The position numbers and the translations under genes are program-made. A DNA stretch of 64,000 nt from Williamsia phyllosphaerae. Lineage in GTDB: Bacteria > Actinomycetota > Actinomycetes > Mycobacteriales > Mycobacteriaceae. The notes under the pieces are model-generated. The model saw only the letters and a program-made list of their open reading frames with translations, was not told where the DNA came from and did no database searches. Positions 41,483 to 48,312 of the stretch are shown here, piece after piece; positions within the stretch are counted from its first letter, which is position 1, and every line of letters starts with the position of its first letter. The stretch lies in assembly GCF_014635305.1 (NCBI RefSeq), contig NZ_BMCS01000001.1, forward strand, positions 1,488,001-1,552,000, in the 5' to 3' direction.

Positions 41483-42511
41483 TCAGCGCCAGCCGAGCTC
41501 CGGTGCGACCTCGGTCAGGATCGATTCGATGACATGCGCGTTGTACTCGACGCCCAGCTGATTGGGGACCGTCAGCAACAGCGTGTCGGCCTCGGCGATG
41601 GCCGAGTCCTGCGCGAGTTGCTCGATGAGTTTGTCGGGCTCGTCGGCGTATGACCGCCCGAACCGTGCGATGCCGCCGTCGATGTGGCCGACCTGGTCCG
41701 TCTCCGTGCCACCGCGCCCGAAGTATGCGCGGTCGCGGTCGTCGGTGATGGCGAAGATGCTGCGGCTCACCGACACCCGCGGGGTGAATGCGTGGCCGGC
41801 GTTGTCCCACTCCTTGCGGAAGACGCGGATCTGCTCGGCTTGCAGCTCGTGGAACGGGACACCGGTGTCCTCGGTCAACAGCGTCGAGCTCATCAGGTTC
41901 ATACCCTGCCGCGCTGTCCACTCCGCCGTCGCGCGGGTGCCCGCACCCCACCAGATGCGCTCCCGCAGACCTTCCGAGTGCGGCTCCAACCGCAGCAGCC
42001 CCGGCGGATTGGGGAACATCGGCCGCGGGTTCGGGCGGGCGAAGCCCTCTCCCTCGAGTGCCTGCAGGAACATCGCGGTGTGGCGACGTGCCATGTCGGC
42101 GTCGGTCTCACCCTCGGCGGGCGCGTAGCCGAAGTACTTGTAGCCCTCGATCACCTGCTCGGGCGACCCCCGGCTGATACCGAGTTGCAGCCTGCCCCCG
42201 GAGATCAGGTCCGCCGCACTCGCATCCTCGACCATGTACAGCGGATTCTCGTACCGCATGTCGATGACACCCGTACCGATCTCGATACGGGACGTCCGTG
42301 CGCCCACCGCGGCGAGCAACGGGAACGGGGACGCCAGTTGACGCGCGAAGTGGTGCACACGGAAGTAGGCACCGTCCGCGCCGAGCTCCTCGGCGGCGAC
42401 GGCAAGCTCGATGGACTGGGTGAGCACATCGGCCGCGGACCGCGTCTGCGACTGCGGGGACGGCGTCCAGTGCCCGAACGAAAGGAACCCGATGTTCTTC
42501 ATGGTCCCCAT
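41483..42511 (-). CDS. LLM-class flavin-dependent oxidoreductase
   Basis: 342-residue luciferase-like monooxygenase with the (alpha/beta)8 fold. It begins NIGFLSFGHW and has GAYFRVHHFARQLASPFPLLAAVGART, RIEIGTGVIDMRYENP and RLQLGISRGSPEQV, all typical of FMN or F420-using LLM enzymes. Cofactor choice is not decidable. ATG 42511 gives MGTMKNIGF; ATG 42502 is the alternative. A palindrome directly abuts the start. Convergent with the aldolase and probably not part of that pathway. Confidence 0.85.
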   Translation of the reverse strand: MGTMKNIGFLSFGHWTPSPQSQTRSAADVLTQSIELAVAAEELGADGAYFRVHHFARQLASPFPLLAAVGARTSRIEIGTGVIDMRYENPLYMVEDASAADLISGGRLQLGISRGSPEQVIEGYKYFGYAPAEGETDADMARRHTAMFLQALEGEGFARPNPRPMFPNPPGLLRLEPHSEGLRERIWWGAGTRATAEWTARQGMNLMSSTLLTEDTGVPFHELQAEQIRVFRKEWDNAGHAFTPRVSVSRSIFAITDDRDRAYFGRGGTETDQVGHIDGGIARFGRSYADEPDKLIEQLAQDSAIAEADTLLLTVPNQLGVEYNAHVIESILTEVAPELGWR

Positions 42512-42529: not shown

Positions 42530-42788
42530 TGTATTCCAGGAATGGCCCGGAAGCATACGTCCGGGCCGACGTCGAACGCTCTGGGCGGCGAGAGACAGAT
42601 GCAGATCTGTGCGTGATGGGCACCGGGCCGCGGCTGTGGTGTCAGTGATGCACGTGTTGCAGCAGAACGCGGCCGGTTGCGGTGACGGTCTTCGACGACT
42701 GGGTTTCGACAACAACGATCTCGTCCCTGGCGGGAGCGACACTCAGGCGGATCGTGCAAGCGAAGCCGACGTAAAATGCGGGTTCCCC

Positions 42789-43679
42789 TCAAACGTTCCC
42801 ACTGGGCAGGACGCGGTCAGCCCTGTCTCGTCCGATGTTGCGCAGCGTCATCTGGCGGGTCTGGGGATCGTATGCGCGGAACGGGAGCCAGGCGAGAAGG
42901 TAGAAGAGGTACTGCGCCGGCAGTACGAAGCACGCGGCGAGAACCGCGTTGCGTAGGTCGCCATGGGCGCGATAGGTTCGCTGGTCTCGTAGGCAGTATC
43001 GCCAGAAGGTGCGCGGCGAACACAGGTACCGTCGCCCGGAAATACCCGCGTCGGCGTTCGGTATCAGAGCAATTCGGTAGCCGGCCGCTCGAATCGTCAA
43101 GGTCAGGTCGAGGTCCTCGAAGATGTCGGTACGGTGCGACCGTGACGATCTGACCGAGGTCCACGCAGACTGTGTTATCGCCATGTTGGACCCGAACAAC
43201 CTAGGGATTGCGGCAGTGTCGGGGTTGTTCGAGGCCAGTCGAGTCGATGTCACAGCGGTACGTTGCTGTTGGCGGCGCCGGAAGCGACCTTGGAATGGCA
43301 GGTCGTAGCAGTAGCACAGGCCCGATCCGGCCTGGAACCGGTCACTGTGTGTGGCGAAAAACTGTCGGACCGACTGCGACCATGCGTCGGGGACGTGCGT
43401 GTCGGCGTCGATGCGCGCGAGAACCTCACCTCGCGCGGAGTCGAACCCCAGAGACCGGGCGTTGATCACACCTTGCTCCGGGGCACGGATCAGTCGAATC
43501 ACGGCAGTCTCGCCCGTCATACGGAGCACGATGTCGGTGGTGTTGTCGGTGGAGTTGTTGTCGACGACGATGATCTCGTCGACCGGTTCTTGTTGCGACA
43601 ACAGAGCACGGAGACAGTCTTCAATGCAGTCTTGCTCGTTGTATGTCGGGATGATGACCGACAACGAAGGGGTGAGCAC
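42789..43679 (-). CDS. Family 2 glycosyltransferase
   Basis: 296-residue GT-A fold transferase. The N-terminal donor domain begins LSVIIPTYNEQDCIEDCLRA. The metal-binding DxD is ARIDADTHVP, with a later acidic motif FEDLDLTLTIRAAGY. One or two hydrophobic segments near the C-terminus (LAACFVLPAQYLFYLLAWL) tether it to the membrane. Donor and acceptor unknown. It belongs to an AT-richer patch with a small unknown protein and a PaaK-like enzyme on the same strand. Confidence 0.88.
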   Translation of the reverse strand: MLTPSLSVIIPTYNEQDCIEDCLRALLSQQEPVDEIIVVDNNSTDNTTDIVLRMTGETAVIRLIRAPEQGVINARSLGFDSARGEVLARIDADTHVPDAWSQSVRQFFATHSDRFQAGSGLCYCYDLPFQGRFRRRQQQRTAVTSTRLASNNPDTAAIPRLFGSNMAITQSAWTSVRSSRSHRTDIFEDLDLTLTIRAAGYRIALIPNADAGISGRRYLCSPRTFWRYCLRDQRTYRAHGDLRNAVLAACFVLPAQYLFYLLAWLPFRAYDPQTRQMTLRNIGRDRADRVLPSGNV

Positions 43680-43774
43680 TGACTAAACAGACCACATACC
43701 CGCGGAATCCTCAACGGCAGCGGCGAGCAAGCGTGATCCGCTGGGTCCGCCACGACCGGGTGCAGGACGCACGA

Positions 43775-44212
43775 TTAGGTGAGGCGAGACGCCCGCGGAT
43801 CGATCAGCTTCGATCGGTCGAGACCGGCCACCAGTAGATCGATCCGAGCAGCCACCGCGCGGTCGGTGAGTGTGGTGCCCGCTTCGCCGGTTCGAGCATC
43901 GTTACAAAGAGTTTGCTGAGGGGCCAGCAAGTCGTCGAAGGCGACGAGGAGACCCGAGGCCGCGTGGGGTACGTCCCCCCAACCCGACGACACACAGTGC
44001 ATGAGCCAGTCGAGGACTGCGGATGAGGATGTGCAACCCAGCAGCGGTACGGCGTAGCGCTCATCTCTGGTCCGCAGGACCAACTCGTAGGAGGACGGGT
44101 CTAGCCTCCACGGTCCCCACCGCCGCGCGTCGTCGGCAATGAACATGAATGGCGTAAAAATTTCAGTGGGCATGGGCATCCTCGGAATCGGTCCGTGAGA
44201 CTGAATGGTCAT
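43775..44212 (-). CDS. Hypothetical protein coupled to the PaaK-like gene
   Basis: 145 residues with no signal peptide or clear membrane helix. Notable segments are FTPFMFIADDARRWGPWRLD near the N-terminus and LLVAGLDRSKLIDPRASRL at the end. I do not recognise the family. ATG 44212 overlaps the stop of the adenylating-enzyme gene by four bases (ATGA); a further ATG six bases upstream is possible. The tight coupling suggests a stoichiometric partner. Higher A/T at third codon positions than in flanking core genes. Confidence 0.65.
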   Translation of the reverse strand: MTIQSHGPIPRMPMPTEIFTPFMFIADDARRWGPWRLDPSSYELVLRTRDERYAVPLLGCTSSSAVLDWLMHCVSSGWGDVPHAASGLLVAFDDLLAPQQTLCNDARTGEAGTTLTDRAVAARIDLLVAGLDRSKLIDPRASRLT

Positions 44213-45636
44213 TCGCATTGCTGTGAAACAGCTCTCGACTCCGTCCGCCGGGTATCGACTACGCGTACGAATTTTCCCCCCTGAGACCTCTGAGGGAGTT
44301 CGTCGGATATCTCGACGACGACGTGCGACAGACCGGAGTCTGCGAGCAGCTGGTCCAAACGGTGGCGCGCCTCTCTGCCTGAGGCCGCGCGGTCGGTCCC
44401 GGGTCGGATTGAGAACCTGACGGTGAGATGGTCGTCACCGTCGCGAACGATTTGAGACTGGGCGAACCCGTCGACGGCATCGAGCACCACCGACACGACC
44501 GTGGGCGAAATTCCGTGGCGTCTACCGGCGACATCGAAGTGCACAATCTCGCCAGAACGTCCGAGGACGTCGAACGCAGGCAGAGGGTTTCCGCATTCAC
44601 ATCGGTCCGGACGCATGAGAACGGAGTCGCCCAGGTCGTAGCGGATGATCGGTTGGACCCGGCGAAACAGGTTGGTGAGCAGAACCGAGTGCGACGGGTG
44701 TCCGCGCGGCGTCGGTTCTCCGGTCATCTCGATGGGCTCGAGGATCACCCAATCCGCGTTCAGGTGTTGCCATCCGAGATCGCACCGGGTCGCGATGAAC
44801 ATGCATTCATTGGCGACGTAGCGGTCGATGACCACAGCGCGTGGCCACGCGTGCCGAATGGTCTGCAGCGCAGTCGGGGTCATGGTCTCGGAGAACGGCA
44901 GCAAGACCGCGGGATCAATACGGAGGTTGCCTTCCAACTGCTCCTGCGCAAGCAGCACCAGCACCGACGAGTACGAGCTCACACTCGCGGGATCCATGGC
45001 CGTCAGCTGGGCGGAGAGGCTCGGGACCGACTCCAGAACAGAGAAGAATCGGACGCGGCGATCCGGTTTTGCGTTGTCTCGACTGTTGTAGAAAGCGGCA
45101 CCCATGTGGTGGCCCTCGAGTTTCAAGATGGCCGCGGTTCGACCGCGCTTGCGCGTGAACTGGGCGGCCGCGCGAGGCCCGAAGGCAGATAGCCGGGATC
45201 CGAGCGCGCGCAACACCTCTAGCGCGGAGTCCTCGGTGACGAAGCAGCCTCGTATTCCACTTGTTCCCGACGACTCGCTGTAGAGGTAGTTACCCAGGAA
45301 ACGACGGCCGACGTTGGCGTCATCATTCGCGAACTCGTCGACCGCGCGCGTGGTGATCCTGCGGTCAGACGCCCACCGGTCGAACTGATCCATCAACATT
45401 GCCTTGCCGGTCACCGGCAGATCGTGGAGGCCGGCCGAGTCCATGGCAATGCCCTGGTACAGGTCGGCGAAAAGCGGTGACGTCGCGCCAACGTGACGCA
45501 CCAGCGAAATCAGACGGCGGTCGGCCCTCGACCGACAGTGCTGCTCGTTGCGCGCCGCCCGCCGAGCGTCACGCTTCAGCCACCTCAGCCCTCTGTCGAT
45601 ATCGGCCGGGCCCTCCGACTCGTTTTGCCCTCGCAT
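44209..45636 (-). CDS. PaaK/CapK-like adenylate-forming enzyme
   Basis: 475 residues, similar in layout to phenylacetate-CoA ligase and CapK proteins that activate carboxylates as adenylates. The AMP-binding loop is YSESSGTSGIRG. Later motifs are QPIIRYDLGDSVLM and the Cys-rich RCECGNPLPAFDVLGRSGEI expected in this branch. The substrate is not predictable and CoA transfer is not proven. ATG 45636 is chosen by length; its ribosome binding site is weak. It is divergent from a WS/DGAT gene and co-oriented with the unknown protein and GT2. Confidence 0.78.
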   Translation of the reverse strand: MRGQNESEGPADIDRGLRWLKRDARRAARNEQHCRSRADRRLISLVRHVGATSPLFADLYQGIAMDSAGLHDLPVTGKAMLMDQFDRWASDRRITTRAVDEFANDDANVGRRFLGNYLYSESSGTSGIRGCFVTEDSALEVLRALGSRLSAFGPRAAAQFTRKRGRTAAILKLEGHHMGAAFYNSRDNAKPDRRVRFFSVLESVPSLSAQLTAMDPASVSSYSSVLVLLAQEQLEGNLRIDPAVLLPFSETMTPTALQTIRHAWPRAVVIDRYVANECMFIATRCDLGWQHLNADWVILEPIEMTGEPTPRGHPSHSVLLTNLFRRVQPIIRYDLGDSVLMRPDRCECGNPLPAFDVLGRSGEIVHFDVAGRRHGISPTVVSVVLDAVDGFAQSQIVRDGDDHLTVRFSIRPGTDRAASGREARHRLDQLLADSGLSHVVVEISDELPQRSQGGKFVRVVDTRRTESRAVSQQCE

Positions 45637-45879
45637 GTCCACAGCATTGCAGGGTTTGATGTCACAACTGTTGCTATCGCGAGTTGGCGGCATTTTTGGC
45701 GTCGATACTGGTGGGCGCCCGGTCAACATGATGTGGCAAGGTAATCAAAAGCGGCGAAGCGGACACCCAGAGTGTGCTCGTATCCACGTCGATGACACCG
45801 ATGCTGCGCTATGGTTCGGCCGTCAGGTTGTTTTGAACCGTTCGGGGCCGGTTCTCTGCGGGCGGGATTGGACCGTGTC

Positions 45880-47376
45880 ATGAGACAGCTATCAGCTCGC
45901 GATGCCGCGTATCTGTACCTCGATGATGGGCACACCTCTGCCACAGTGTTGTCGTGCTGGGTGCTGTCCACCGCCGACGGCAGCCCCAGCACCATCGAGC
46001 CGAACGACATCGTCGAACGACTGACCGATTTGGTCAACGCTGACGCCTTGTTCGCCAGCCGCTTACGTCGTCTGCCGCTCGATATAGGACTGCCCTACTG
46101 GCAGTACGACCCGACCTTTCGCGTAGCGGAGCATCTCGACATACACCGCAACGCCACCACGTGGACCGAAGCCCAAGATCTGCTCGCGCACATCGCGGGC
46201 GACCCGCTGGACCTGACTCGGCCGTTGTGGAAAGCGCACATCATCACCGATGTCAGACACATGCCGGACTGCCCCGGGGTCGCGACCATCGTGGCGATCA
46301 TGTTCCACCACGCCGCGTTCGACGGCGTCACCTGGGCTCGGCTCACCCGCGCAATCCTCGCTGATCATTCCCACCTCGTGGAGGAACCAGCGAATCCCGC
46401 GCGGTCAGAATCGTCCTTCCCAACCACACCACGACTTGTCGCGTTAGAGATCCTCCGACTACCCCGCAATGTGTTTCGATTTGCGGCGGCGCTGATCGGG
46501 TTGGTCGGAAAGCCCCAACACACCTCTTCATCAGGGCAGGACCCAAACCCAACCGAGACAACCGGAGCGCCCGCGTCATGGCCGGCTACCCGTTTCAATT
46601 CCGCCGTGCGCGGTGCCCGCCGCGTCGACTACTGCATCCTGAATTTGACTGACGTCAAGATGATCAAGACGATCGCTGACGGCGCAACCGTCAACGACGT
46701 CATGATCTCGATAGTCGGGCGCGCCCTCCACCTGTATCTGGAGAAGTGTGGTGAACCTCCCCAGCGCTCCCTGTCTGCATTGGTCCCCATGTCGACCCGG
46801 ACCGGTGACGGAGGAACGGCAAACCAGTTCGTGCCGTTGGTTGTTGACATGCACAGCGCCGAGGCGGATGTTGCGACGCGCCTCGCGGCGATCGTGGGGT
46901 CGTCGACCGCCGCCAAATCATCGATCCGCTCGGCGTCGCAGAAGCCTGGGTTGGTGCAGGCCGTTCCCGCGCCGCTGCTGCGGCTCATCGGCTCGGTCAG
47001 CCGGGCGATGTCGGCGCGGACCAGTTCGCCGACAACCGCCTTCGCGAACACTGTGATCGCCAACGTCCACACGAAAACCCCGATCGAGACCATGTTCGGC
47101 CGTACGATTTGCGCGGCATTCGGCATTCAGACACTGGGACCACCGTCAACGCTGGCGCACTCCATCAGCTCCATCGACGGTCACCTCGCCATATCGGTCA
47201 CAGTGGACGGCGCGGTGATGCCAGATACTGCAGAGTACGTGCGCTTGATCCGCATCTCGTTCGATGAACACCTCATTGGTGCGCGGCGCACCGTCAGCGC
47301 ACCCCACGATCCGGAACACCACCTGTCCAGGGCGGTACATGGTGAGCACCAGATCGCGGGACCGGAGGACGCATGA
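45880..47376 (+). CDS. WS/DGAT-family acyltransferase
   Basis: 498-residue wax ester synthase/diacylglycerol acyltransferase-like enzyme. The PLDxxRPLW-like segment PLDLTRPLW (109-117) and the intact active-site motif HHAAFDG (143-149) are present, and the C-terminal DUF1298 region has FANTVIANVHTKTPIETMFG. It would esterify an acyl-CoA to an alcohol, diacylglycerol or another hydroxyl acceptor at the membrane. ATG 45880 begins the family-typical RQLSARDAAYLYL. Its stop overlaps a 51-codon gene. Divergent from the PaaK-like gene across 243 bases. Confidence 0.85.
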   Translation: MRQLSARDAAYLYLDDGHTSATVLSCWVLSTADGSPSTIEPNDIVERLTDLVNADALFASRLRRLPLDIGLPYWQYDPTFRVAEHLDIHRNATTWTEAQDLLAHIAGDPLDLTRPLWKAHIITDVRHMPDCPGVATIVAIMFHHAAFDGVTWARLTRAILADHSHLVEEPANPARSESSFPTTPRLVALEILRLPRNVFRFAAALIGLVGKPQHTSSSGQDPNPTETTGAPASWPATRFNSAVRGARRVDYCILNLTDVKMIKTIADGATVNDVMISIVGRALHLYLEKCGEPPQRSLSALVPMSTRTGDGGTANQFVPLVVDMHSAEADVATRLAAIVGSSTAAKSSIRSASQKPGLVQAVPAPLLRLIGSVSRAMSARTSSPTTAFANTVIANVHTKTPIETMFGRTICAAFGIQTLGPPSTLAHSISSIDGHLAISVTVDGAVMPDTAEYVRLIRISFDEHLIGARRTVSAPHDPEHHLSRAVHGEHQIAGPEDA

Positions 47377-47528
47377 CCGCAATGACTCACAGAAAGTGGG
47401 TACCGATATGTCTTCTTGCGTCGACGACGGTCGCCATCGCCGGGATCTGGCGGCTTTGCAAAGTCCTTTCTGACACCCTCGACCGAACCCCGATGCACCC
47501 GCCGAGGGTTCTTCCACTTCGACGTTAG
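47373..47528 (+). CDS. Small membrane protein coupled to the WS/DGAT gene
   Basis: 51 codons from ATG 47373, whose ATGA overlaps the acyltransferase stop, to TAG at 47526-47528. One hydrophobic helix (residues about 9-27, WVPICLLASTTVAIAGIW) is flanked by HRK on one side and RLCK on the other, giving a single-pass topology. The tail is basic (RVLPLRR). No family recognised. The overlap and helix argue for a real peptide, perhaps an anchor or regulator of the acyltransferase. Confidence 0.5.
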   Translation: MTAMTHRKWVPICLLASTTVAIAGIWRLCKVLSDTLDRTPMHPPRVLPLRR

Positions 47529-47874
47529 CTGTTGAATCGAATTGTGCGAACCAAGAATTGGTTCACGCAGTCATGAGGCGACTGCAGCCGGTGTGCCGCT
47601 GCGTTGGCTGGCGCATCAGATTCATGAGGGCTCGTCGAGCGGGCCCCGGCGGCGACACATCCGCGTGCTGACAGCGGGGGTCGGGCTGGCGCTGCGCCGC
47701 GCCACCGGCGACGACGACCTCGATGCCCTTGCCCGGCCGGCCCCTCGATCCCCGCGATGACAGGTTTGACGGCGGCGAGCCACCCTGGTCGCCGAGGTTC
47801 CCGCGTCTTCCGATACCAATGACTCGGGGCGCGGCCGCGCTCGGAAGTGATGTGGAATCGAGGACCCGGAGACG
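47529..47874. other. Gene-free interval between the accessory patch and the MaoC gene
   Basis: 346 bases without a reading frame I can support. Short frames on both strands are Arg/Ser-rich and lack ribosome binding sites. Composition changes from moderate GC at the left to very high GC from about 47640, which may mark the junction between the accessory patch and core DNA. An inverted repeat CCAAGAATTGG is present near 47551. Confidence 0.5.
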
Positions 47875-48312
47875 ATGTCAGAGCTTCTGTACGCCGAGGA
47901 CCTGGTGGTCCGGTCTGAATGGGACCTGGGCAGTTGCGTCGTCACCGAGGCCGAGATCATCGAGTTCGCGCGGCAGTGGGACCCGCAGGGCTTCCACGTC
48001 GACCCCGACATCGCCGCCGCCGGCTATTTCGGCGGCATCATCGCCAGCGGCATCCACACCATGGCCATGTTCCAACGACTCGCGGTGCCCGCAGTGTTCG
48101 ACCGATGGGCCACGATCGCCGGTCGGGGCATGCGCGACGTCCGACTGCTGCGCCCCGTCCGCCCGGGCACCACGTTGACCGGCACGATGATCGTGGACGT
48201 CGTCGACCTGCACCGCCCCGACCGCGCCCGCGTCGAGATGACCGGACGCCTGGTCGAAGCCGGCGGGACCGTGCTCGAGATGACGATGGAGATCTCCGCG
48301 CGCCGACGCTGA
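47875..48312 (+). CDS. MaoC-like (R)-hydratase domain protein
   Basis: 145-residue hot-dog-fold protein of the MaoC dehydratase family, which hydrates enoyl thioesters. The hydratase-2 motif region is FARQWDPQGFHVDPDIAAAGYFGGIIASGIHT (about 31-62), with the Asp and His of the catalytic dyad present. A second conserved stretch MRDVRLLRPVRPGTTLTG follows. ATG 47875 gives a full-length single-domain protein. Role likely in fatty-acid or polyketide-like metabolism. Confidence 0.85.
   Translation: MSELLYAEDLVVRSEWDLGSCVVTEAEIIEFARQWDPQGFHVDPDIAAAGYFGGIIASGIHTMAMFQRLAVPAVFDRWATIAGRGMRDVRLLRPVRPGTTLTGTMIVDVVDLHRPDRARVEMTGRLVEAGGTVLEMTMEISARRR

Follow-up and report, generated by a model that had tools for sequence, protein, structure and literature searches.

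Genes for the serovar-specific decoration of glycopeptidolipids differ between strains. In mycobacterial glycopeptidolipid loci, the accessory part encodes the glycosyltransferases and acyltransferases by which an envelope compound, the product of an NRPS and its MbtH-like partner, is decorated; the core locus, with its MbtH-like protein, has been described (PMC3537567). According to the part of the source considered here, Rhodococcus and its relatives carry large NRPS clusters with predicted lipopeptides and no known product, and a make-up of WS/DGAT, GT2 and exporter is not among the features described (PMC5550956).

In this work, we describe an accessory island of Williamsia phyllosphaerae whose protein families are known and for which variable glycopeptidolipid decoration is the closest concept. 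As in the mycobacterial loci, glycosyltransferase and acyltransferase genes stand together, but the island is unlinked to NRPS genes, its acyltransferase is of the WS/DGAT type and it includes a PaaK-like enzyme. The Williamsia-type core NRPS locus differs further from glycopeptidolipid loci in having an ABC-2 (Drr-like) exporter, and the acceptor proposed below is deduced from the genes. The original prediction knew of no described cluster of this make-up, and we likewise found no description of the gene combination in the literature searched, which lay mostly outside subscription journals.

An inserted segment of low GC content

The window, that is, the whole 64-kb stretch analysed (C1:1488001-1552000 within a 4.8 Mb genome), contains an insertion of 5.18 kb (window 42.58-47.76 kb; table 1). 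In two genomes of the same genus, G007 and G004, blastn showed both flanks to be contiguous, with a spacer of 26-28 bp between them; the left flank is 95-96% identical in these genomes and the right flank 90-91%. Close relatives thus lack the genes at this place, rather than carrying them there with normal composition. Transfer, originally suggested from codon usage, is supported by this empty site in relatives rather than by codon use.

Table 1. Features of the island and its flanks (positions in the window)
Feature	Position	Strand	Basis or remark
Left flank, core luciferase-like monooxygenase	41483..42511	-	Flank comparison
Inserted segment (accessory island)	42578..47760	.	Flank blastn against G007 and G004; low GC
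GT2 glycosyltransferase	42789..43679	-	PF00535, E=6e-27
Small orphan protein, 147 aa	43775..44218	-	Overlaps adenylating-enzyme gene; no family match
PaaK/F390-synthetase-like adenylating enzyme	44209..45636	-	ORF reaches 45729; homologues suggest start near 45636
Divergent intergenic region, adenylating enzyme/WS/DGAT	45637..45879	.	Head-to-head arrangement kept in G001 and G006
WS/DGAT-superfamily O-acyltransferase	45880..47376	+	ORF from 45811; homologues suggest start near 45880
Hydrophobic 51-codon ORF, unproven	47373..47528	+	No homologue
Right flank, core MaoC-like protein	47875..48312	+	Flank comparison

Each 1 kb window wholly within the patch has a GC content of 0.615-0.630, and no 1 kb window of the 64-kb window lying well away from it falls below 0.643, the patch being the sole stretch with successive 1 kb windows below 64% GC. 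The higher A/T content at third positions reported at first was confirmed, with GC3 of 0.71-0.75 in the four larger island genes versus 0.84-0.90 in five neighbours; the shift per gene is mild (z of -1.2 to -1.9 against the 45 called genes of the window), and by RSCU distance only the small ORF is unusual among the island genes. What is odd in composition is that all island genes are low together, not any single gene.

The simplest reading is an insertion in the intergenic gap between two divergent core genes. Loss of the island in both G007 and G004 is a possible alternative, but it would leave the composition shift unexplained. No integrase or transposase was found among the island ORFs, no tRNA site at the island ends (the tRNAs of the window are only at 8.4 and 52.7 kb) and no shared end repeats of at least 10 bp; such features are common in horizontally acquired islands, not obligatory. 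No informative match was obtained for the final 230 bp up to the right junction.

Three enzymes kept together at different sites

The ORFs named in the original prediction are all present as described, including that of the small protein (about 145 residues, here 147). In 3 of the 301 genomes of the family, namely the present one, G001 (L027) and G006 (L028), the adenylating-enzyme and WS/DGAT genes form a neighbouring, head-to-head pair. GT2 genes lie at most 3 kb from the pair in all three, with the GT2 order of the island differing from those of G001 and G006. The modules of these two genomes occupy sites other than that of the island, with species-specific neighbours. In G006 the module is close to mscL (identified by sequence reading) and beside an ABC-2 pair, a flank found only in this member of the genus; each of the other seven genomes also has mscL, at places where no module was found. 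The G001 module adjoins a phosphatidylserine-decarboxylase-like gene, again a flank unique within the genus. A shared core at different sites with different neighbours indicates that the two divergent units were co-inherited as a mobile module, whose composition is conserved and whose site is not. The joint acyl and glycosyl function first proposed gains from the company of the three enzyme genes in G001 and G006, and loses two of its parts, since the small protein and the 51-codon peptide fall outside the conserved module. The peptide, predicted as a membrane member of one unit, has no homologue, nor was a counterpart found 3' of related WS/DGAT genes.

The island GT2 is 56% identical to its G001 counterpart. 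In a tree it groups with the GT2 genes of the G001 and G006 modules (support 92/88) and lies near GT2 genes from Williamsia NRPS loci.

The adenylating enzyme resembles PaaK-like ligases and F390-synthetase-related proteins (TIGR02304; AjiA1, 6siw) in its adenylation motifs, which are intact and include SSGTxG, YDLGD, GR and a C-terminal GGK, and in a C-x-C-G motif. AjiA1 and PaaK-like ligases are the nearest solved structures. Unlike TIGR02304 proteins, it stays below the cut-off of that model (E=4e-22) and belongs to a subclade of its own in Williamsia-like genera. Close kin occur in 19 of the 301 family genomes, and in most of the other genomes having it the enzyme stands alone. The genome studied here has a second copy (C1:491835-493220; L024:9833-11242), 53% identical to that of the island and likewise alone, flanked by a cyclase gene and purA. 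Because it mostly stands alone elsewhere, this copy included, the adenylating enzyme can serve another purpose.

The acyltransferase matches PF03007 (E=6e-26) and shares with WS/DGAT O-acyltransferases (TIGR02946, PF03007) the fold family and the HHxxxDG motif, present as an intact HHAAFDG. It scores 234 bits against TIGR02946, below the curated cut-off of 310, and lies in a clade separate from storage-lipid WS/DGATs. In a tree of 28 proteins, from which a third typical set was left out, this clade (100/100) holds acyltransferases mostly of the NRPS core locus, and the typical WS/DGATs that these genomes also encode fall outside it. Inside the clade, the island enzyme, those of the G001 and G006 modules and two orphan copies from G004 and G007 join at 87/89. 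The orphan copies (L074:9002-10411; L113) are the nearest to the island enzyme by identity (44-46%), and no GT2 or adenylating genes were found alongside them. Close kin of the island WS/DGAT occur in 19 of the 301 family genomes, and none was found on plasmids.

The core locus to which these relatives belong adjoins mycofactocin-type genes in the present genome and in several others of the family. It comprises an ABC ATPase, two ABC-2 membrane genes (a Drr-like exporter), MbtH and a giant NRPS, together with one or two WS/DGAT genes and, in most cases, GT2 genes. The NRPS has some 11,000 residues in W. muralis, and in the present genome repeated condensation and adenylation domains run through some 34 kb. 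The module is unlinked to this locus in all three genomes; in the present one the locus is at C1:2.13-2.18 Mb and the island at 1.53 Mb. The region C1:2130000-2189700 (L066:1-19901, L086, L087) holds about 11 NRPS modules, and the locus is conserved in several of the family's genera.

The small protein, despite overlapping the adenylating-enzyme gene, is probably a mobile-element passenger, judging from its few kin, two of which lie beside mobile-element-like genes. It has no Pfam or NCBIfam match, and its structure model (pLDDT 66) gave no fold match. Kin were found in three other genomes only (G165, G156 and G383), two of which have it next to AAA/excisionase or AAA/terminase-like genes, as read from translations; no relatives were found on viral contigs or plasmids. 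A role in an acyl-glycoconjugate system was therefore rejected for this protein, which is not conserved in the module and has such neighbours in two of its three other carriers; of the gene set proposed for the cluster search, only the PaaK-like, WS/DGAT and GT2 genes recurred together in G001 and G006. The kin (L057, L058 and L114) have in common a GPW...C...LD...Q...C pattern without a Pfam match, and the mobile-element-type neighbours are those of L036/L058 and L114. A defence system was also rejected, as none of the five island proteins gave a PADLOC match.

Possible roles of the island

Our best explanation, held with about even confidence, is that the island may be a horizontally acquired decoration cassette placing acyl and sugar groups on a surface glycolipid or lipopeptide. 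The PaaK-like enzyme would turn a carboxylic acid into an acyl-AMP and hand the acyl group over, with CoA as the simplest recipient; the WS/DGAT-type enzyme, with its HHxxxDG motif, would esterify the acyl group onto a sugar or lipid hydroxyl; and the GT2 would add a sugar. We infer as acceptor either a surface glycolipid or the compound that the core NRPS locus makes, because the island enzymes are akin to enzymes of that locus. Four observations count against the cassette: the island has no sugar-donor genes, carrier or exporter, linkage to the NRPS locus is absent in the three genomes, the adenylating enzyme stands alone in most other genomes and so can have another use, and the island and G001/G006 WS/DGATs join at only 87/89. 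If this is correct, Williamsia-like actinobacteria would have a surface glycolipid or lipopeptide that is still undescribed and whose decoration varies by gene transfer. A bolder version, which we regard as unlikely, is a mobile "acyl-sugar cap" cassette of three enzymes in which the PaaK-like enzyme would activate an unusual (e.g., aromatic) acid and the WS/DGAT would esterify this acid onto an envelope glycolipopeptide made by the giant NRPS; transfer between species would then alter surface chemistry, as serovar loci do.

It is possible, if rather doubtful, that the cassette makes a small acylated glycolipid of its own, independently of the NRPS, with the GT2 glycosylating a lipid or polyprenyl acceptor and the WS/DGAT acylating it. 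Two or three enzymes suffice for such a product, and the module stands alone, away from the NRPS locus, in all three genomes; however, its WS/DGAT and GT2 are closest to NRPS-locus enzymes, and an exporter or carrier is missing here too.

A chance assembly of unrelated passengers at an insertion hot spot seems quite improbable. The small ORF is an orphan of mobile-element type, the gene order is unlike those of G001 and G006, and distant kin of the adenylating enzyme ride plasmids, some adjoining metal-resistance genes, with no other island genes beside them in the three plasmid regions examined. Against this, the head-to-head pair recurs in three species at different sites, whereas we estimate that roughly 0.1 pair within 10 kb would be expected by chance for some 20 possible pairs, counted only in genomes holding kin of both enzymes.

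Storage-lipid (TAG or wax ester) synthesis gained as a metabolic trait, an option also raised at the outset, agrees with Pfam family membership and is very improbable, being rejected by the position of the WS/DGAT outside the TAG/wax clade and inside that of the NRPS loci, its score below the TIGR02946 cut-off, the several typical WS/DGATs already in the genome and a GT2 that would have no purpose. The clade is tied to lipopeptide loci and not to oil storage, so annotation by family name would mislead.

Two minor observations concern relatives of these genes. On a Mycolicibacterium crocinum plasmid (L121:7086-9353), the gene for a distantly related adenylating enzyme comes after an adenylate/guanylate cyclase gene and metal-resistance genes, the cyclase neighbour being common to it and to the second copy of the present genome. 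The loci L022 and L023, recorded under Williamsia muralis and Kitasatospora arboriphila, are nearly identical, so one of the two records is probably mislabelled or contaminated.
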